DNA of 64,000 nucleotides from Agromyces protaetiae (GTDB lineage Bacteria; Actinomycetota; Actinomycetes; Actinomycetales; Microbacteriaceae), in contig NZ_CP133018.1 in the NCBI RefSeq assembly GCF_030866785.1, positions 3,410,001-3,474,000 of the forward strand, in the 5' to 3' direction. Under the pieces are notes generated by a model. That model was not told the DNA's origin, ran no database searches, and saw only the letters and a program-made list of their open reading frames with translations. Below, piece after piece: positions 43,385 to 58,134 of the stretch; within the stretch, counting starts at the first letter, position 1; each line of letters opens with the position of its first letter. Position numbers and translations under genes: made by a program.

Positions 43385-45931
43385 ATGACACACGACCATG
43401 CGGACCACGCCGCGGGTCCCGGAGGCCACGCTGCCGCGGACGACGTCGCACGAACGGCTGCGGCCAGCGCCGCAAGAAGTGGGTCCGGGGACCGTGAGTG
43501 GGGTGGAGGCGCTGCAGGTGCGACCTCGGACCCACCCGCGGGTCACGAACCCACTTCCCGCGGCGCTGAGCACGGCGAGCGCGCCGACCACTCCGACCAC
43601 ACCGGCCACGAGCACACCGACCACGAGCACGCGGGGCACGGGCACGCCGACCACGCGGAGCACACCGGCCACGCGCCTGGCGGGCACGGGCATGCCGGCC
43701 ACGCCGGCCACGCCGGCCACGCCAACCACGCCGGGCACGGCCACGCCGAGCACTCCGGCCACGACCACGCCGGCCACGTCGCCCAGTTCCGCCGCCTGTT
43801 CTGGATCAACCTCGCGCTGGCGATCCCGACGGTCGCCTTCTCCCAGATGTTCGCGTCGATCCTCGGCTACTCGCTGCCCGATCTCGCCGTCACACCGTGG
43901 ATCTCGCCGGTCCTCGGCACGATCATGTTCGTCTGGGGCGGCCGCCCGTTCCTCACCGGCGCCTGGTCGGAACTCCGCGCGCGCACGCCCGGCATGATGC
44001 TGCTCATCGGCCTCGCGATCACGGTCGCCTACGGGGCCTCGCTCGGCGCGAGCCTCGGCCTGCTCGATCACCATCTCGACTTCTGGTGGGAGCTCGCGCT
44101 GCTGATCGTCATCATGCTGCTCGGCCACTGGATCGAGATGCGGTCCGTCGCGCAGGCCGGCAGCGCGCTCGACGCGCTCGCGGCGCTGCTGCCCGACGAG
44201 GCCGAGCGGGTGACGGATGCCTCGGACGGCACCTCGACGACCGAGACCGTCGCCCCGTCGGAGCTTCGCGTCGGCGACGTGGTCGTCGTCCGCCCGGGCG
44301 GCCGCGTCCCGGCCGACGGCGAGGTCGTGGACGGCACGGCCGCCGTCGACGAGTCGATGATCACCGGCGAGTCGACGACCGTGACCCGCGGCCCCGGCGC
44401 ACCGGTCGTCGCGGGCACCGTCGCCACCGATACCGCGATCCGGGTCCGCGTGACCGCGGTCGGTGCCGACACCGCACTCGCGGGGATCCAGCGGCTCGTC
44501 GCCCAGGCGCAGGCCTCCACCTCGCGTGCGCAGCGGCTCGCCGACCGGGCCGCGGCGTGGCTGTTCTGGTTCGCGCTCGGCGCGGCCGTGCTCACCGCGA
44601 TCGCCTGGACGCTGCTCGGCGATCCCGACGACGCCGTCATGCGCACGATCACGGTGCTCGTGATCGCCTGCCCGCACGCGCTCGGCCTCGCGATCCCGCT
44701 GGTCGTGCAGATCGCGACCGAGCGCGCCGCCCGCGGCGGCGTGCTCGTCACCGACCGCCTCGCACTCGAGACCATGCGCACGGTCGACGCGGTGCTGTTC
44801 GACAAGACGGGGACGCTCACCAAGGGCGAGCCGGCGATGACGGATGCCTCGGCGGCACCCGGCCGCGATCTCGACGAGGTGCTCGCCCTCGCCGCGGCCG
44901 CAGAGGCCGACTCCGAGCACCCGCTCGCGAGAGCGATCGTGCAGGCCGCCGCCGCGCGCGGCCTTCCGCGACTCACCGCGACCGACTTCACCGCATCGGC
45001 CGCGGTCGGCGTCCGCGCCCTCGTGGACACGACCTCCGTCGGTCGAGTCGCGAGCGCCGGCGAGCGCATCGAGACGCCGCACGCCGAAGGACAACGGCAA
45101 CGATCGGAACTCGATACGCGTCCTCCTTCGTCGTTCACTACTCGACCAACGGATGACTCGGGCACTCCTCGACCGACGGAGACGTCGGGCGTCGTTCGAC
45201 CGACGGCGGTCGTGGAGGTGGGCGGCCCGGCCCTGCTGCAACGGCACGGACTCGTCCCGCTCGAGGCATCCGTCGCCTGGGGCGGTGCGACCGTGCTGCA
45301 CGTCCTCGTCGACGGCGAGGTCGCGGGCGCCCTGGCGCTCGCCGACGAGATCCGGCCCGAGTCGCGCGAGGCGGTCGACGCGCTGCACGCGCTCGGCGTG
45401 CAGGTCGTCATGATCACGGGCGACGCCGAGCCCGTCGCGCGCACCGTCGCCGCCGAGCTCGGCATCGACCGCGTGTTCGCCGGAGTGCGCCCGGAGGACA
45501 AGGCCGCGAAGGTCCGCGAGCTGCAGCGTGAGCGCCGTTCGGTGGCGATGGTCGGCGACGGCGTGAACGATGCGCCCGCGCTCGCGCAGGCCGACGTCGG
45601 CATCGCGATCGGCGCCGGCACCGACGTGGCGATCGCCTCCGCCGGTGTCATCCTCGCATCGAGCGACCCGCGGTCGGTGCTCTCCGTCATCGAGCTGTCG
45701 CGCGCGAGTTACCGCAAGATGCGGCAGAACCTCTGGTGGGCCGCCGGCTACAACCTGCTGTCGGTGCCGCTCGCGGCGGGCGTGCTCGCGCCGATCGGGT
45801 TCGTGCTGCCGATGTCGGTCGGCGCCGTGCTCATGAGCCTCTCGACCGTGATCGTCGCCCTGAACGCGCAGCTGCTGCGCCGCCTCGATCTCAGCCCCGA
45901 GGCATCCGCTCGCGCCGCGCTGAGCGACTGA
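43385..45931 (+). CDS. copB: CopB-type (P1B-3) copper-translocating P-type ATPase
   Basis: 848 residues. The N-terminal ~135 residues are extremely His/Gly/Asp-rich (HADHAEHTGHA-like repeats) in place of CxxC domains, typical of CopB. Core motifs: transmembrane CPH in VIACPHALGLAIP, TGES, phosphorylation site DKTGTLTKG (~residue 472), HP motif SEHPLARAI, and GDGVNDAPALAQ (~724). About residues 558-608 of the ATP-binding domain are an odd insertion with 9-residue repeats (RPTDDSGTP, RPTETSGVV). Exports copper or silver across the membrane. Regulated by the CsoR-like operator upstream. Confidence 0.95.
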   Translation: MTHDHADHAAGPGGHAAADDVARTAAASAARSGSGDREWGGGAAGATSDPPAGHEPTSRGAEHGERADHSDHTGHEHTDHEHAGHGHADHAEHTGHAPGGHGHAGHAGHAGHANHAGHGHAEHSGHDHAGHVAQFRRLFWINLALAIPTVAFSQMFASILGYSLPDLAVTPWISPVLGTIMFVWGGRPFLTGAWSELRARTPGMMLLIGLAITVAYGASLGASLGLLDHHLDFWWELALLIVIMLLGHWIEMRSVAQAGSALDALAALLPDEAERVTDASDGTSTTETVAPSELRVGDVVVVRPGGRVPADGEVVDGTAAVDESMITGESTTVTRGPGAPVVAGTVATDTAIRVRVTAVGADTALAGIQRLVAQAQASTSRAQRLADRAAAWLFWFALGAAVLTAIAWTLLGDPDDAVMRTITVLVIACPHALGLAIPLVVQIATERAARGGVLVTDRLALETMRTVDAVLFDKTGTLTKGEPAMTDASAAPGRDLDEVLALAAAAEADSEHPLARAIVQAAAARGLPRLTATDFTASAAVGVRALVDTTSVGRVASAGERIETPHAEGQRQRSELDTRPPSSFTTRPTDDSGTPRPTETSGVVRPTAVVEVGGPALLQRHGLVPLEASVAWGGATVLHVLVDGEVAGALALADEIRPESREAVDALHALGVQVVMITGDAEPVARTVAAELGIDRVFAGVRPEDKAAKVRELQRERRSVAMVGDGVNDAPALAQADVGIAIGAGTDVAIASAGVILASSDPRSVLSVIELSRASYRKMRQNLWWAAGYNLLSVPLAAGVLAPIGFVLPMSVGAVLMSLSTVIVALNAQLLRRLDLSPEASARAALSD

Positions 45932-50975: not shown

Positions 50976-51104
50976 ACCAGCCGGATGTCACGCGGAGCTG
51001 AATACCCGCTTTGCCCTAGCACTTTTGCCACGAAAACCGCAAGGGGGGTTTCGGGAAGCTAACTCTCCGGTTTATCATTCTGCGCAACCATGGGGGTGGT
51101 GGAG

Positions 51105-52322
51105 ATGTCCTCAACGACGCAGACACGTCGTCGACCCTTCCTCCGCTATGCCCTCCTCGGAGCCGCCGTCTCGGCAGGCTGGCTCACCATCAGCCTCATC
51201 TCCGGCGCGCAAGGCGCCTCGGCCGACGACCGTGACGGATCCGGTCTGCTCGGCGCCGTCGGATCGGTGCTCGGCGGGGTCTCGGAGACCACCGGCGCCG
51301 TCGGCGACGCGGTCGGCGACCTCGTCGACACCGCAGTCGCGCCGGTGAACGCCGTGGTCGAGCCCGTGCTCCAGGCGGTGTCACCGCCGCCCGCCGCGGT
51401 GCCTCCGGCCCCTGCCCCTGCGCCCGCGCCGGCTCCTGCACCCGCGCCGGCCGAACCGGCTCCGGCGACGCCCGCTCCCCCGGCCACGCCGGCCGCGCCG
51501 TCGGTCGGCACGATCGTGGCCGGCGTTCCCGGCGTCGTCGACGGCACGACCGGGCTCGTCAACGGGGTGCTCGACGGCGTCGACCGCGCAGCGATCGGCC
51601 TCGTCGGCGACGTCTCAGAAGCGGTGACGGATGCCACATCGGGCGGTCTCGTCGGTGGTGTCGCAGGGCCCGTGGTGGGCGCGCTCGACGGCGTCGTCGG
51701 CGGGCTTCCGCTGGTGGGCGATCTGGTCGGTGACCGCCTGCTCGGCAGCATCGTGACGCCCGTGACCGACCTCGTCGACGGCACGCTCGACACGGTCGTC
51801 GGCGGCGTCGGCGAACTGCCCGGGAGCGGCGTCCTGCCGACGATCCCGGACGTGCCGCTGCTGCCGGGGATCATCGGCGAGCCGGGCGTGCCCGGCCTGC
51901 CCGCGTTGCCGACGCCCGCCATTCCCGCACCCGGGAGCGCTCCGGTGGGCAGCGCAGGTGACGCTGCGCGCGCCACGGAGGCATCCGGCTCGTCAGCGGC
52001 TGCCGCCGCCTCGTGGACGCGCGGCCTGTCCGGCGGCGCGCCGAACGCGACGCCCGAGGCATCCGCGCCGTCCACCGCGATCCTGGGCGGTTCCGGCGAC
52101 GACCAGCGCACGCCTACGCCGGCTCCCGTCGCGCCGATCAATGCGCCCGGGGCGACCGGCTCGGCCGGCGCGAACGGTGCCGCGGCCGGCGGCGCCGCCG
52201 GGGCATCCGACGCCGTCTTCGATGCGGACACGCTGGGCGCGACCGCATCGCTGATCCTCAACTCGGTCGACGACGCGCTGCCGTCGTCGCCGGTCTTCGG
52301 CACCGACACCACCCCTGACTGA
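51105..52322 (+). CDS. Secreted low-complexity protein with hydrophobic Gly/Val/Leu repeats
   Basis: 405 residues from the ATG at 51105 (GGTGGAG directly upstream; an ATG at 51090 adds five residues). Tat-like or Sec signal (RRRPFLRYALLGAAVSAGWLTISLISGAQGASA). Then a region of GLLGAVGSVLGGVSETTGAVG-type heptad-like repeats, a (PA)n spacer around residues 95-130, and more hydrophobic repeats (GLVGGVAGPVVGALDGVVGGLPLVGDLVG). C-terminal half is Ala/Ser/Gly/Pro-rich. No catalytic motif. It directly precedes the chaplin-like gene, and its amphipathic Gly/Val repeats suggest a surface or assembly role (inference). Confidence 0.75.
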   Translation: MSSTTQTRRRPFLRYALLGAAVSAGWLTISLISGAQGASADDRDGSGLLGAVGSVLGGVSETTGAVGDAVGDLVDTAVAPVNAVVEPVLQAVSPPPAAVPPAPAPAPAPAPAPAPAEPAPATPAPPATPAAPSVGTIVAGVPGVVDGTTGLVNGVLDGVDRAAIGLVGDVSEAVTDATSGGLVGGVAGPVVGALDGVVGGLPLVGDLVGDRLLGSIVTPVTDLVDGTLDTVVGGVGELPGSGVLPTIPDVPLLPGIIGEPGVPGLPALPTPAIPAPGSAPVGSAGDAARATEASGSSAAAAASWTRGLSGGAPNATPEASAPSTAILGGSGDDQRTPTPAPVAPINAPGATGSAGANGAAAGGAAGASDAVFDADTLGATASLILNSVDDALPSSPVFGTDTTPD

Positions 52323-52354: not shown

Positions 52355-52420
52355 TCATGGCTCGGGCGCACTCGCGTCTCCGGGCTCCATTCACCCATTC
52401 AGTCAGGAGGACTGATCATC

Positions 52421-54028
52421 ATGGACCTCAAGCGGTTCGCAACGAGGGCGCTGTACGCGACCCTCATGACCGGGGGCATCACGCTCCTCGGGGCCGGCGT
52501 GGCACACGCCGCAGAGACCGGCGGCGAGGACGGAGTGCTCTCGGGCACCCAGGCCGGCGTCGCCATCGACCTGCCCATCAACCTGTCCGGCAACGCCATC
52601 TCGGTGCTCGGCGACGCATCGTCGTCGGGGGCTGAGACGGTCACGTCGACGCCGGCCGCGGCGCCGGCCGAGGCGCCGGTCACCTCGGGTGACGACGGCA
52701 TCGGGTCGGGCAGCCAGGCGATCGTGGACGTCTCCATCCCGGTGACGATCGGCGGGAACGCGATCAGCGTGCTCGGCGACGCGTCGTCGACGGAGGCGTC
52801 GACCGAGCAGGCGCCGGCTCCCGCGGCACCTGCCGAGGAAGCCGCACCGGCACCGGCACCGGCGCCTGCGCCTTCGACGAGCGGCGACGACTCGCTCCTC
52901 GGCGGCACGCAGGGCCTCATCGACATCGCGGTGCCGATCACGATCGGCGGCAACGCGATCTCGGTCGTGGGCGACAGCAGCTCGGAGGGCGCCTCGACCG
53001 AGACGACCACCGGCAGCGGCACGGCGGGCTCGACGGGCGAGGGCAGCGCCTCGACCTCGGGTGAGGACGGCATCCTCGGCGGCAGCCAGATCATCGGCGG
53101 CGTCGAGGCGCCAGTGACCGTCGGCGGCAACGCCATCTCGGTCGTCGGCGACAGCTGGACCGAGGGCGCCACGACCGGCGTCTCGACGGACACCGGTGCG
53201 GCCGGCGGCGAGGCCGAAGGCCCCAGCACCTCGGGTGAGGATGGCGTGCTCGGCGGCACCCAGGCCATCATCGACGCGGTCGCCCCGGTGACCGTCGGCG
53301 GCAACGCCATCTCGGTGGTCGGCGACAGCTCGAGCGAAGGCGCCACGACCGGCGTGATCGGCGGCACCGGATCGGGCTCGACCGCCACGACCGGTGGCGA
53401 CGACTCGATCCTCGGCGGCACGCAGGTGCTGCCCGAGCTCGGTCTGCCCGTAACGGTCGGCGGCAACGCGATCTCGGTGGTCGGCGACACCTCGTCGACC
53501 GACGCCGAGACCGTGGTGGTGCCCGGCACCGGCGGTTCCGGTGGGGCGACGACGGACGGGTCCGACAGCCTGCTCGGCGGCTCGCAGATCATCCCCGGCA
53601 TCTCGCTGCCGATCACGATCGGCGGCAACGCCATCAGCGTGATCGGCGACAGCGAGACGGAAGGCCCGACGACCATCGTGGTCCCCGGTGAGCCGACCGA
53701 CCCTGGCACGCCGGTGGACCCGACGGATCCCACGGACCCGACGGACCCCACCGACCCGACGGACCCGACGGACCCCGGCACGCCGGTGGACCCGACGGAC
53801 CCCACCGACCCGACCACTCCGGGTACTCCCGGTGATGACGGATCGATGACGCCGGGCTCCTCGGTCGCCGGCATCGGTGGCGCCACGGTGATCACGGCCG
53901 GCGCGTCCTCGACGGGCGTGCTCGCCTCGACCGGTGCGGATGTCGCGGGGCTGGCGATCGCCGGCGGCCTCGTGCTGCTCGCGGGGCTGCTGCTCTTCGG
54001 GTTCCGCCGCTTCGCCGCCCGCAACTGA
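52421..54028 (+). CDS. Cell-wall-anchored protein with seven chaplin-like repeats
   Basis: 535 residues. Signal peptide ending AHA/AE (~residue 30). Seven repeats of ~37 residues follow, each with G(D/E)D(G/S)xLGG(T/S)Q, a short hydrophobic strand, P(V/I)T(I/V)GGNAISVxGDSSS; the decapeptide GGNAISVVGD is nearly invariant. Repeat 1 (GVLSGTQAGVAIDLPINLSGN) is closest to Streptomyces chaplins, but no repeat has the chaplin cysteines. Linkers are Ser/Thr/Gly/Glu-rich. Then a (DPT)n wall spacer, sorting motif LASTG, a hydrophobic helix and an RRFAARN tail: a class E sortase (LAxTG) substrate. RBS AGGAGG lies 10 bp before the ATG. Probably a surface-active or amyloid-forming coat protein. Confidence 0.85.
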   Translation: MDLKRFATRALYATLMTGGITLLGAGVAHAAETGGEDGVLSGTQAGVAIDLPINLSGNAISVLGDASSSGAETVTSTPAAAPAEAPVTSGDDGIGSGSQAIVDVSIPVTIGGNAISVLGDASSTEASTEQAPAPAAPAEEAAPAPAPAPAPSTSGDDSLLGGTQGLIDIAVPITIGGNAISVVGDSSSEGASTETTTGSGTAGSTGEGSASTSGEDGILGGSQIIGGVEAPVTVGGNAISVVGDSWTEGATTGVSTDTGAAGGEAEGPSTSGEDGVLGGTQAIIDAVAPVTVGGNAISVVGDSSSEGATTGVIGGTGSGSTATTGGDDSILGGTQVLPELGLPVTVGGNAISVVGDTSSTDAETVVVPGTGGSGGATTDGSDSLLGGSQIIPGISLPITIGGNAISVIGDSETEGPTTIVVPGEPTDPGTPVDPTDPTDPTDPTDPTDPTDPGTPVDPTDPTDPTTPGTPGDDGSMTPGSSVAGIGGATVITAGASSTGVLASTGADVAGLAIAGGLVLLAGLLLFGFRRFAARN

Positions 54029-54050
54029 GCGGACGGGTCATCCACTCGCG

Positions 54051-54429: not shown

Positions 54430-57400
54430 CTACGGCTGCGTGCGACCCGCCGCCCGGCGACGGCGGATCACCATGAAGGCGCCGGCCGCGGCGAGGAGCG
54501 CCGCGAGCACGAGGCCCGGGAGCACGTCGGCACCGGTCGAGGCGAGGCCGGAGCCCGCCCCGCCACCAGCACCGCCGGCGCCGCCAGCGGCGGTGACCGT
54601 GACGGCATTCGCGATCGGCTCGAAGCCGGCCGACTCGACGATCAGCGTGTGCGCGCCGACCGCGAAGTCGGCGGGCACGCGCACCGTGAACGACACCGCG
54701 CCGTCGGCGTTCGCCGCCGGGATGCCATCGATCACGAGCGGTGCGCTGAACAGCGTCGCCGAGATCTGCTGCCCGGGCGCGAGGCCCGTGACCGCGACGT
54801 CGAACGAGCCGCCCTGCTGCACGGTCGGGCTGCTGAGCGAGACATCCGCCCAATCAGTACCGGCCACGACCGAGCGACCCAGCGGCGCGGGGTCGACCGT
54901 GACGAACTCCTCGAAGTACGACACCGCGGCGACGAGGTCGATCTGACCGCTGTCGGCCCGGTTCGTACCGTCGGCGAAGGCACCGAAGTTGTCGCCGCCC
55001 GGCGCGAGGAACGAGTTCACCGTGACGCGGAAGACGTCGTCCTCCGCGATCTGCTCACCCTGGAACGACATGGACACGATGTGCTCGCCGCGCGCGGCCT
55101 CGGGCTCGTACACGTAGCTGAAGCCCTCCGAGACGCCCAGGTGCAGCTTCGGACGGCTCGAGCCGTCGTGCTGCCACTGCTGCTCGAGGGCCTCCTTGAT
55201 CTGCGCGCCCGTCAGGTCCATCTGGAACAGCGTGTTGCCGAACGGCTGCGTGCTCGCGACGTCCTTGTAGGTGACCGTGCCGTGCTCGCCGTGCAGCAGG
55301 TCGGCGCGGAGTCCGCCCGGGTTCATGAACGCGATCTCCGACGGCGTGCCCGCGAACGCCGCGTTCGCGGCCGACGTCGCCCAGAGCTGCTGGTCGGCGA
55401 CCAGGTTGCCGAGCGAGGACTCGACCCCGCGGTCGGCGCCGGCTGGGGCCCCGCCGCGGAGGATGTCACCGGAGATCGAGCCGATCTCGACCGCACCGAC
55501 GATGTCGGCCTCGGCCTCCGCGGCATCGACGATCGCCTGCACGTCGGCGTCGGCCGGGTACTGGGCGGCGCCGTCCACGAGCAGCGGCAGCGTGTCCACG
55601 GTCGCCCCGGTCGCGCGCTTCGTCACGGGGTCGATCGTCAGCTGGATGCGGCCGAGGTGCTTGGCGTACTCGCCGGCCGAGACGACCGGGCGGTCGAACG
55701 CAGCACCCTCGACGGGGAACTCGCACGCGACGTTCTTGTGGGTGTGTCCCGAGAAGATGGCGTCGATGTCGGCGGATGCCTCGCGCACGAGCTCCCCGTA
55801 GACGGAGTCCTCGTTCGCGACGACGTCGCACGACGTCTCCTCCGAGCCGTCGTGCGCGAGCAGGACGATGACGTCCGCCTCACCGTTCGAGGCGTCGCCG
55901 TCGCGCAGCTGCGCGGCCACGCGGTTCGCGGCCTCGAGCTGGGATCCGAACTCGATCTCGTCGATGCGGTCGGGCGCGACGAGCGAGTCCGTCTGCTCGG
56001 TCACGGTGCCGATGTAGCCGACCTTCACGCCGCCGGTCTCGACGATCTTGTACTCGTCGAGCGCCGGGGTCTGCGTGCCCTTCAGGTACACGTTCGCGCC
56101 GAGCGCGAGGCCCGCGTCGCCGTAGGCCGGGATCACCCGGTCGACGAGGTCGCGGTAGCCCGCGTCGAACTCGTGGTTGCCGACCGAGCTGACCTCGAGA
56201 TCCATCGCGACGAGCGCGTCGATCGTCGGCTGGTCCTGCTGCGAGAACGACGTGAACGTGGAGGCGCCGATGTTGTCGCCGGCCGACGCGAACACCGTGT
56301 TCGGGTGCTCGGAGCGGAGCTGCTCCACCGCGCCCGCGAGCACCGCGGCACCCGGCAGGCCCGAGCCGAGGTCCTGCTCGAGGCGGCCGTGGAAGTCGTT
56401 AATCGAGAGCAGCTGCAGCGACGAGGCATCCGTGTCGCCCGCACCCTCGATCGCGAACAGCGTCGTGGTGCCCGAGACCTCGTTGCCGACCGCGAGCATC
56501 GGCTCACCGGTCGGGCTGGTCTCGGCCGGGATGAACGCGAGGCCCTCGGGGCCGAGGTCGCCGGCCGCGGCGAGGTGCTCCACGCCGTCGTCCTCGACCG
56601 ACACGCTGAAGTCGCGGTTGTTCAGGTAGGTGACGAACGTCGAGTCGGCGGGCGTCGTGATGTCGAACACCGCGATACCACCGACGCGCTCGAAGCCGAT
56701 GAACGCGTAGCTGCGGCCGTCGACCTCGCCGATGGCGACGTTCTCGGGCTCGGGCCCCTTGTCGTCGCTGCGGCCCTCGAAGTTCGACTCGGAGTGGTTC
56801 GAGTTGAAGAACTCGGGCGCGGCCGCGTGGGTGATGCGCTCGAAGGCCTCACCCGAGTCGAATACCTGGTTGCCCGCGGTGTCCCAGATCGAGAACGAGC
56901 GCGAGCCGAAGGCGTACAGCTCCTCGTAGCACGTGCCGTCCTGGGAGAGGCCCATGGCGGTCGAGACGTTGAGGCGGCCGAGGTTCGCGTCGCCGAGTAG
57001 GCCTGCGGCCGGGCTCGTCGTGCACACCGGCGCGCGGCCGCCCTTGCCGAGGTCCTTCACCCGGGACGGTTCGACGTAGTCGCCCCACTCGCGCGCGTCA
57101 CCCTCGTTGGCGGTCACGAGGTACGTCTCACCTGCTGCCTGGTACGACTGCATGCCGTCCGGCAGGTACATGCCCTTGAGCCCGGCGAACGTGCGGACAT
57201 CGAACCCGCCGTCCCGGTCGGAGGCGTCGATGCCGTGGCCGGCGACCGAGTGGTCGACGAAGCCGAGCGGGAGGATGTCGGTGACGCTCGCGTGCACGAG
57301 GTCGACGACCGCGATCGCGTTCGCCTCCTGCAGCGCCGCGTACGCCACGTCGCCGTCGATCGCGACGTACTCGGGCTCGAGGTTGCGCGAGACCGGGAGG

Positions 57401-58134
57401 TCGGCCTCGGGCGTCGGGCCGAACACGCGGACGTCCGGGTGCAGGGTCTTCGAGCCGCCGGCCTCGAACTCGTGGAAGTTCGCGATGCGCACGTCGTTCT
57501 GCGTCGGCGCGGCGACCGTCGCCGGAAGAGCCACGATGCCGATCGAGCCCTCGGGGTCGCTCGAGAAGTCGTCGGCGGGCTCGCCCTCGTTGGCGACGAC
57601 GGCGCGCGTGCCGTCGGCCGAGATCGCGACCATGTCGGGCAGCGAGCCGACGACGACGGTGCCGAGCGGCGCGGGCTGGGCGGCCGTGGCGTCGAAGAAC
57701 ATGAGCCGGCCGGGCGCCGTCTTGTCGTCGCGGTCCTCGAGGGCGACGACGCCGAGCCCGTCGGCGCGCACGGCGAGGGAGTTCGCGACGCCGTCGCCCG
57801 CGAGCTCGCCGACCTTCACCGGGAGCTCGGGGTCGCTGACGTCGAGCACGTCGATGAGCCCGGCCTGCGCGTTGACGACGTAGAGCCGCTCGCCGTGGTA
57901 CGCGACGATCTCGGCGGCGGACTCGTCGAAGATGCCGCTCTCGTAAGTGCCGAGCGTGCGGAGTGACAGCGCAGCACCGTCGGCCGAGACCTCAGGGGCG
58001 TCGACGATCGGGGTGGGCGCGGCGCGGAGGGGCGAGGCGGCGGCGGGCGTAGTGGCGAGACATCCGGTCACGAGGGCCGCGCTCACGATGAGCGGGACCG
58101 CAGCGCGCCGGATCAGGGGCCGGGAGGGCAGCAT
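54430..58134 (-). CDS. Wall-anchored bifunctional choice-of-anchor-I / 5'-nucleotidase
   Basis: 1234 residues. Signal peptide to ~residue 33 (cleavage near AAA/SP). Residues ~50-590 are a beta-propeller of the choice-of-anchor-I (alkaline-phosphatase-like) family: LVTANEGDAREWGDYVEPSR, GPEPENVAIGEVDGRSYAF. Residues ~600-1120 are a UshA-type 5'-nucleotidase: metal site LLSINDFHGRLE, SAGDNIGAS, VGNHEFDAG, LAHDG, FSGHTHKN, and the nucleotide-binding domain (FMNPGGLRADLL, VNSFLAPGGDNFGAF). An Ig-like domain and a LASTG sorting signal follow (GSGLASTGADVLPGLVLAA, then RRRRAAG). Likely recovers phosphate or nucleosides outside the cell. The sequence is complete and unbroken. Confidence 0.93.
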   Translation of the reverse strand: MLPSRPLIRRAAVPLIVSAALVTGCLATTPAAASPLRAAPTPIVDAPEVSADGAALSLRTLGTYESGIFDESAAEIVAYHGERLYVVNAQAGLIDVLDVSDPELPVKVGELAGDGVANSLAVRADGLGVVALEDRDDKTAPGRLMFFDATAAQPAPLGTVVVGSLPDMVAISADGTRAVVANEGEPADDFSSDPEGSIGIVALPATVAAPTQNDVRIANFHEFEAGGSKTLHPDVRVFGPTPEADLPVSRNLEPEYVAIDGDVAYAALQEANAIAVVDLVHASVTDILPLGFVDHSVAGHGIDASDRDGGFDVRTFAGLKGMYLPDGMQSYQAAGETYLVTANEGDAREWGDYVEPSRVKDLGKGGRAPVCTTSPAAGLLGDANLGRLNVSTAMGLSQDGTCYEELYAFGSRSFSIWDTAGNQVFDSGEAFERITHAAAPEFFNSNHSESNFEGRSDDKGPEPENVAIGEVDGRSYAFIGFERVGGIAVFDITTPADSTFVTYLNNRDFSVSVEDDGVEHLAAAGDLGPEGLAFIPAETSPTGEPMLAVGNEVSGTTTLFAIEGAGDTDASSLQLLSINDFHGRLEQDLGSGLPGAAVLAGAVEQLRSEHPNTVFASAGDNIGASTFTSFSQQDQPTIDALVAMDLEVSSVGNHEFDAGYRDLVDRVIPAYGDAGLALGANVYLKGTQTPALDEYKIVETGGVKVGYIGTVTEQTDSLVAPDRIDEIEFGSQLEAANRVAAQLRDGDASNGEADVIVLLAHDGSEETSCDVVANEDSVYGELVREASADIDAIFSGHTHKNVACEFPVEGAAFDRPVVSAGEYAKHLGRIQLTIDPVTKRATGATVDTLPLLVDGAAQYPADADVQAIVDAAEAEADIVGAVEIGSISGDILRGGAPAGADRGVESSLGNLVADQQLWATSAANAAFAGTPSEIAFMNPGGLRADLLHGEHGTVTYKDVASTQPFGNTLFQMDLTGAQIKEALEQQWQHDGSSRPKLHLGVSEGFSYVYEPEAARGEHIVSMSFQGEQIAEDDVFRVTVNSFLAPGGDNFGAFADGTNRADSGQIDLVAAVSYFEEFVTVDPAPLGRSVVAGTDWADVSLSSPTVQQGGSFDVAVTGLAPGQQISATLFSAPLVIDGIPAANADGAVSFTVRVPADFAVGAHTLIVESAGFEPIANAVTVTAAGGAGGAGGGAGSGLASTGADVLPGLVLAALLAAAGAFMVIRRRRAAGRTQP

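Follow-up and report, generated by a model that had tools for sequence, protein, structure and literature searches.

A seven-repeat, cysteine-free chaplin-family protein and its conserved upstream partner gene in Agromyces protaetiae

The window, a 64,000-nucleotide stretch of the Agromyces protaetiae genome, contains two adjacent same-strand genes with the following features (coordinates are those of the window).

51090..52322, + strand: partner gene, encoding a secreted, Ala/Gly/Pro/Val-rich protein of 410 residues with no Pfam family
52278..52319, + strand: conserved C-terminal tail of the partner, LPSSPVFGTDTTPD-COOH
52405..52410, + strand: AGGAGG, which we take to be ribosome-binding-site-like, 5' of the array start codon
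52421..54028, + strand: array gene, encoding a seven-repeat, cysteine-free protein of 535 residues assigned to the chaplin family and predicted to be wall-anchored
52421..52513, + strand: signal peptide of the array protein, with an R-x-L-x5-8-GG motif
52502..52627, + strand: repeat 1 (residues 28-69), overlapping the end of the signal peptide
52667..52792, + strand: repeat 2 (residues 83-124)
52862..52987, + strand: repeat 3 (residues 148-189)
53042..53161, + strand: repeat 4 (residues 208-247)
53213..53338, + strand: repeat 5 (residues 265-306)
53375..53500, + strand: repeat 6 (residues 319-360)
53537..53662, + strand: repeat 7 (residues 373-414)
53663..53920, + strand: Pro/Thr/Asp stalk, rich in Thr-Asp-Pro and without basic residues
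53921..54025, + strand: LASTG sorting signal (residues 501-505), hydrophobic segment and basic tail

The array open reading frame occupies exactly the interval given, and the partner lies directly upstream of it across a gap of 98 bases. A consensus scan revealed neither promoter-like nor terminator-like sites. A repeat profile confirms the seven repeats of the preliminary description, each of approximately 40 residues with the GN motifs spaced 54-65 residues apart, and the motif P[VI][NT][LIV][SG]GNAISV[VLI]GD occurs in seven copies compared with none in 2000 shuffles of the mature protein, which rules out a chance or low-complexity origin of the motif. The sequence GGNAISVVGD, described previously as nearly invariant, is exact in only four of the seven repeats (the others reading SGNAISVLGD in repeat 1, GGNAISVLGD in repeat 2 and GGNAISVIGD in repeat 7), whereas NAISV is common to all seven. 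The absence of the disulfide cysteines holds: Cys, Lys, Arg, His, Phe and Tyr are all missing from the mature protein, which contains 60 Asp or Glu residues. The linkers, which had been characterized as acidic Ser/Thr segments, are indeed acidic overall but are rich in Ala, Pro, Gly, Ser and Thr, and with 18 acidic residues among 145 they are not acid-dense. Mean hydropathy is +0.50 for the repeat cores, −0.31 for the linkers and +0.64 for canonical chaplin domains.

Charged, hydrophobic and AxA segments at the N-terminus are recognizable by inspection as a secretion signal. The LASTG anchor and its stalk, likewise proposed in the preliminary description, are present by inspection; since the NCBIfam LPXTG_anchor model scores 14.9 bits, just under its cut-off of 15.9, the anchor assignment rests on the motif and the layout. 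An AlphaFold2 model places strands in the units with low confidence (mean pLDDT 54.9); pLDDT reaches 73-78 in one or two blocks of ten residues within each of repeats 3-6 and is lower elsewhere. A structure search of this model against the PDB returned 37 matches at E ≤ 10 and none at 0.001 (best E 0.11), so that no known fold could be assigned, and a PDB sequence search with the array protein gave chance-level matches only (best E 0.069).

Chaplins are known mainly for helping the aerial growth of filamentous Streptomyces. Comparison with the chaplin profile PF03777 (ChpA-C) gives 38.1 bits for the array protein against a cut-off of 21, with six stretches at a loose limit, of which the best covers profile positions 11-45 of 57; no other domain was found in the Pfam search of the protein. 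The chaplin likeness noted earlier is thus borne out, and by profile and alignment the protein is shown to belong to the chaplin family. In the complete genome search (one contig, 4.18 Mb) the best single stretch scores 29.5 bits and marks the only PF03777 locus. The setting is non-Streptomyces, as had been supposed, with the nearest named relatives mainly in Agromyces and Microbacterium. The suggestion that the protein was not yet described fails at the level of the family, as homologues already carry the names 'chaplin family protein' or 'DUF320 domain-containing protein', the nearest named records being approximately 60% identical (among the best 120 of 342 matches).

Alignment with canonical domains matches through LSG-(N/T), the hydrophobic strand, P-V/I, GN and V-I/V/L-G. 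The array units lack the region in which canonical members carry the third GN and the second cysteine. One GN is found in each of the seven array units, compared with three in all 25 canonical domains, every one of which has two cysteines; these 25 domains come from one genus of the same class, which appears Streptomyces-like, after exclusion from 28 loci of the three belonging to the window's own order (L210, L211 and L223). As aligned, the array repeat is a shortened chaplin domain that has a single GN rather than three and no cysteine. Because the third GN and the second cysteine are missing, the array might assemble differently from canonical chaplins.

Cysteine-free repeats predominate among close homologues, accounting for 745 of 750 repeats in the array protein and the best 120 of 342 matches. 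Four of the five exceptions carry an NAVCxVGDC pair; such close-pair repeats, unlike the canonical chaplin cysteine pair, are seen in P0063, P0065, P0084 and P0098 and also in L070. Across 78 array loci, 36 of 535 repeats contain cysteine, more commonly in the more distant arrays and mainly in Aquihabitans L137 (13 of 13), Nakamurella L162 (10 of 17), L252 (six of nine) and L255 (three of six). In the Nakamurella silvestris array (L162:4001-6502; PF03777 score 13.6 bits, under the cut-off) cysteine-free units come first and the last units have one cysteine before the GN and another after it. This mixed array is a plausible intermediate.

Of the 299 family genomes, 93 match an array profile, compared with 66 for PF03777 itself. 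In the window's own genus 42 of 60 genomes have a match in the repeat region (a hand count; the raw figure of 48 also takes in genomes in which the stalk alone is matched), two of these matches (G335 and G339) containing a stop codon. Since 18 of the 60 genomes lack the array, it is not essential. Within the order array matches occur in 15 of 179 genomes, including three families beyond the window's own, and PF03777 matches occur in 15 of 396 genomes across the phylum. Compared with four distinct relatives of the same genus, the repeat cores are 74-77% identical and the linkers 54-63%; fourfold sites show the same excess of similarity in cores over linkers for most of these pairs, so that selection on the protein cannot be read cleanly from the contrast. 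Two same-genus loci, L036 and L039, give comparisons with the array protein identical to those of A. salentinus L103 and A. fucosus L105. Repeats 1, 2, 3 and 7, the last, find their best match at the same position in other Agromyces arrays, while the matching of repeats 4-6 is less strict, suggesting that arrays may grow or shrink in the middle.

A class E sortase, which the preliminary description proposed to look for, is encoded in the genome (NF033747, 241.4 bits against a cut-off of 160); its gene adjoins that of the glutamine amidotransferase of anthranilate or aminodeoxychorismate synthase. A second sortase in the same genome is closest to class F and falls under the cut-off of that model. 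Directly before this class F-like sortase lies a gene for a secreted-looking protein of 277 residues (L032:419-1252), with no NCBIfam match at 0.001. The class E cut-off is passed in 53 of 60 genomes of the genus, with 41 of 42 array-bearing genomes positive compared with 12 of 18 array-free genomes (Fisher p=0.002, a value that ignores kinship); the array-bearing genome in which no class E sortase was found is G349. We infer that the array protein is anchored by the class E sortase of its own genome.

The partner is the new element of the locus and is more unusual than the chaplin array; it lies outside the gene to which the preliminary description was confined. Its best Pfam score is 7.4 bits against a cut-off of 27 and its best NCBIfam score is 21.2 bits (MXAN_5187; cut-off 200). 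Its AlphaFold2 model has helices at residues 53-97, 149-183, 192-205, 215-239 and 378-393, with low confidence (mean pLDDT 57.2). When 20 regions from relatives were taken, all 19 with a complete array open reading frame had a same-strand upstream frame ending in Pro-Asp, with position-wise conservation of the tail and a loose consensus of LPxSPxFxxDxSPD before the stop codon; in four of the 19 a longer frame in another reading frame is also present upstream of the array. As the frames were picked by their end, the rule itself partly dictates the final two residues of the tail profile, and the other positions are independent of it.

In a first wider set 65 of 70 array open reading frames have an upstream frame ending in Pro-Asp, or in Pro-Gly in L117, the five exceptions being three at contig edges (L104, L134 and L157), a second fragment (L130) and Oerskovia L141, where the end is SPA. 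Eight of nine added loci have a partner end (Pro-Gly in L255), the ninth, L253, being at a contig edge. Altogether, 73 of 78 array loci are preceded by a partner-type frame (71 ending in Pro-Asp and two in Pro-Gly), or 72 of 77 distinct arrays, as L060 and L124 hold the same array. The rule accepted any upstream frame ending in P[DG]; applied to random positions in the same loci it was satisfied at 117 of 1927 (6%), some of these lying behind real partners. Around 25 canonical chaplin loci, for which approximately 1.5 kb of flank was covered, one of 96 upstream frames ends in Pro-Asp. The partner-like frames of L141 and L255 end in STFFE(V/I)PVSP(A/G) and not in the Pro-Asp tail; the partner of Nakamurella silvestris (L162:2257-3861) ends in FSPD.

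Among the 299 family genomes a partner profile matches 84, of which 76 also have the array. Of the 17 array-bearing family genomes in which the profile detects no partner, nine were inspected and all nine have a diverged partner with a Pro-Asp end. Across the phylum the partner profile matches 13 of 396 genomes, several of them weakly, and distant partners are for this reason recognized by position and tail only. Several families of the order keep the pair, as do records from Nakamurella and Aquihabitans, and these comparisons show it, as read from the genomes, to be a tight gene pair with a Pro-Asp end. Other neighbours were rejected as members of the module: once the array and its antisense frame are set aside, the largest neighbour cluster covers 12 of 52 loci, in a clustering that lacks sensitivity for low-complexity proteins and missed even the partner.

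In eight family genomes the partner profile matches without the array profile. In six of these (L083, L084, L085, L088, L089 and L090) the place of the array downstream of the partner is taken by a different secreted protein with an LPXTG or LAXTG anchor; of the other two, L087 is at a contig edge and L086 (G056) is likely to be a false match, lacking a frame with the tail and with no anchored neighbour seen. A Pfam search of four of the six replacement proteins gave two matches to Collagen above the cut-off, one below it and one protein with no match. The replacement proteins (L083:3424-5022, L084:2688-4004, L085:1755-3602, L088:2231-3943, L089:2750-4408 and L090:2439-4478) are built of units resembling VDxVVDLxGD or GDGxLVEGG, and some are collagen-like.

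The R-x-L-x5-8-GG signal-peptide motif is shared by 59 of 75 arrays and all six replacement proteins, against a background of 62 in 1576 open reading frames, arrays counted in. Most of the 16 arrays without the strict motif have, by eye, Lys for Arg or AG for GG, and four of the 16 are truncated or were read from the wrong place. The motif occurs at one of 12 canonical chaplin loci, where it precedes the start codon. The presence of the partner beside non-chaplin proteins implies that its tail need not contact chaplin units, and the partner seems to be tied to a class of wall proteins rather than to the chaplin unit itself.

The annotated chaplin-family and DUF320 proteins of Agromyces, Microbacterium and their relatives are homologues of the array protein that are known by name only. 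The array protein has in common with the long Streptomyces chaplins ChpA-C secretion, chaplin domains with hydrophobic units, a sortase signal and a class E sortase. It differs in having seven units rather than two, in the absence of cysteine and of part of the domain, with one GN instead of three, and in its additional acidic linkers, TDP stalk and upstream partner. Streptomyces genomes have several short and long chaplins each, whereas the single PF03777 match here means that no short chaplin was detected. ChpE of Streptomyces is a short, single-domain protein, works among other chaplins and is not known to form a wall-anchored multi-repeat array. Excerpts of PMC3079736 describe ChpE as a chaplin without the two cysteines that forms fibrils in vitro, as do all five short chaplins of S. 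coelicolor, and PMC13251363 describes the C-terminal domain of ChpB as cysteine-free, so that the lack of cysteine is not new within the chaplin family. According to the same excerpts of PMC3079736 the cysteines are dispensable for fibrils in vitro, a strain dependent on cysteine-less ChpH is severely impaired in aerial growth, and both long and short chaplins are required for robust aerial hyphae. CwpA and CwpB of Actinoplanes missouriensis are class E sortase substrates that make the surface hydrophobic outside Streptomyces; unlike the array they have no chaplin domains by their authors' conclusion, and the available part of that paper mentions no partner gene (PMC13251363).

The array and its partner may together form a two-gene surface-coat module, a reading to which we give somewhat better than even weight and in which the module belongs to Microbacteriaceae and some related actinobacteria. 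The downstream gene would supply a long multi-domain chaplin with seven shortened β-units on flexible acidic linkers, which the Pro/Thr/Asp stalk would hold outward, with the class E sortase linking the protein to peptidoglycan. Through β-rich contacts between units of adjacent molecules, a continuous coat, fairly hydrophobic and adhesive, would cover what is presumably a non-mycelial cell, and one many-unit protein would replace the Streptomyces mix of long and short chaplins. Against this reading, no short chaplin with which the array could co-assemble was detected in this genome, and in Streptomyces both kinds are required for robust aerial hyphae. The upstream gene would encode a secreted, partly helical companion that aids export, display or assembly of the wall protein, with its fixed Pro-Asp tail most likely serving as a docking or recognition end. 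More tentatively, and with a probability that we put short of even, the pair may represent a general actinobacterial two-gene surface-layer system, in which a Pro-Asp-tailed, secreted helical helper would act with an exchangeable wall-anchored repeat protein that has the R-x-L-x5-8-GG signal peptide and is fixed by class E sortase. The chaplin array would be the commonest cargo, and chaplin coats outside Streptomyces would use the helper instead of long/short mixing.

The strongest competitor to a coat module, though in our estimate rather unlikely, is that the array acts as an adhesin or spacer resembling beads on a string, in which small β-units fold singly and bind surfaces or partner cells with no amyloid or surfactant assembly, the partner being a co-secreted chaperone or ligand. 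The linkers and stalk would suit separate beads, and the replacement of the array in six relatives by other wall-anchored proteins, some of them matching Collagen, is in keeping with this. Excerpts of PMC4255298 report chaplin-like genes in a few non-streptomycete actinomycetes, among them the rod-coccus Arthrobacter chlorophenolicus, and suggest attachment as a possibly older role of chaplins, which would fit a host without aerial hyphae. The units are nevertheless chaplin domains, a type for which fibrillation in vitro extends to all five short S. coelicolor chaplins, cysteine-free ChpE included (PMC3079736, in excerpt), and Pfam gave no other domain in the array protein.

It is less probable still that the partner is simply a neighbour on the transcript, such as a secreted matrix protein with a target of its own, with the Pro-Asp end as a tag for a protease or exporter and the two proteins never meeting. 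Its occurrence beside proteins without chaplin repeats could be explained in this way, but the pair persists across families and in Nakamurella and Aquihabitans while other neighbours vary, and the six non-array neighbours carry the signal-peptide motif of the arrays. That the chaplin likeness is itself convergent, a low-complexity repeat rich in Gly, Val and Asn scoring on PF03777 by composition, is very improbable. The Pfam score is marginal for many arrays, as the lower count of genomes passing PF03777 than the array profile indicates; against this stand the score of the present protein (38.1 bits versus a cut-off of 21), the residue-by-residue alignment with canonical domains, the lack of any PF03777 match in 14 control genomes and the mixture of cysteine-free and cysteine-bearing units in the sub-cut-off Nakamurella protein.

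Full-text searches of mainly open literature, judged by title and opening of the abstract, found no paper on Microbacteriaceae chaplin arrays or on the partner, which speaks weakly for their absence from the literature. The protein family is already known and annotated, and the new element is the partner. The widespread, reduced and mostly cysteine-free chaplins of Microbacteriaceae show a possible minimal working unit and raise the question of a role for chaplins beyond aerial hyphae, and the conserved partner with its fixed C-terminal end offers a concrete handle on possible coat assembly.

Three further features of the window were observed. The convergent neighbour of the array (54430-58134, − strand) encodes a protein of 1234 residues with choice-of-anchor I, metallophosphatase and 5'-nucleotidase C-terminal domains, which ends in LASTGADV, a membrane segment and a basic tail and so has the same sorting motif as the array protein. 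A 548-residue open reading frame (52399-54045, − strand) runs antisense over the whole array in this high-GC sequence and recurs opposite the arrays of relatives; it looks like a shadow frame. At 43385-45931 (+ strand) lies an open reading frame with a long His/Gly-rich N-terminus, which we take to be P-type ATPase-like.
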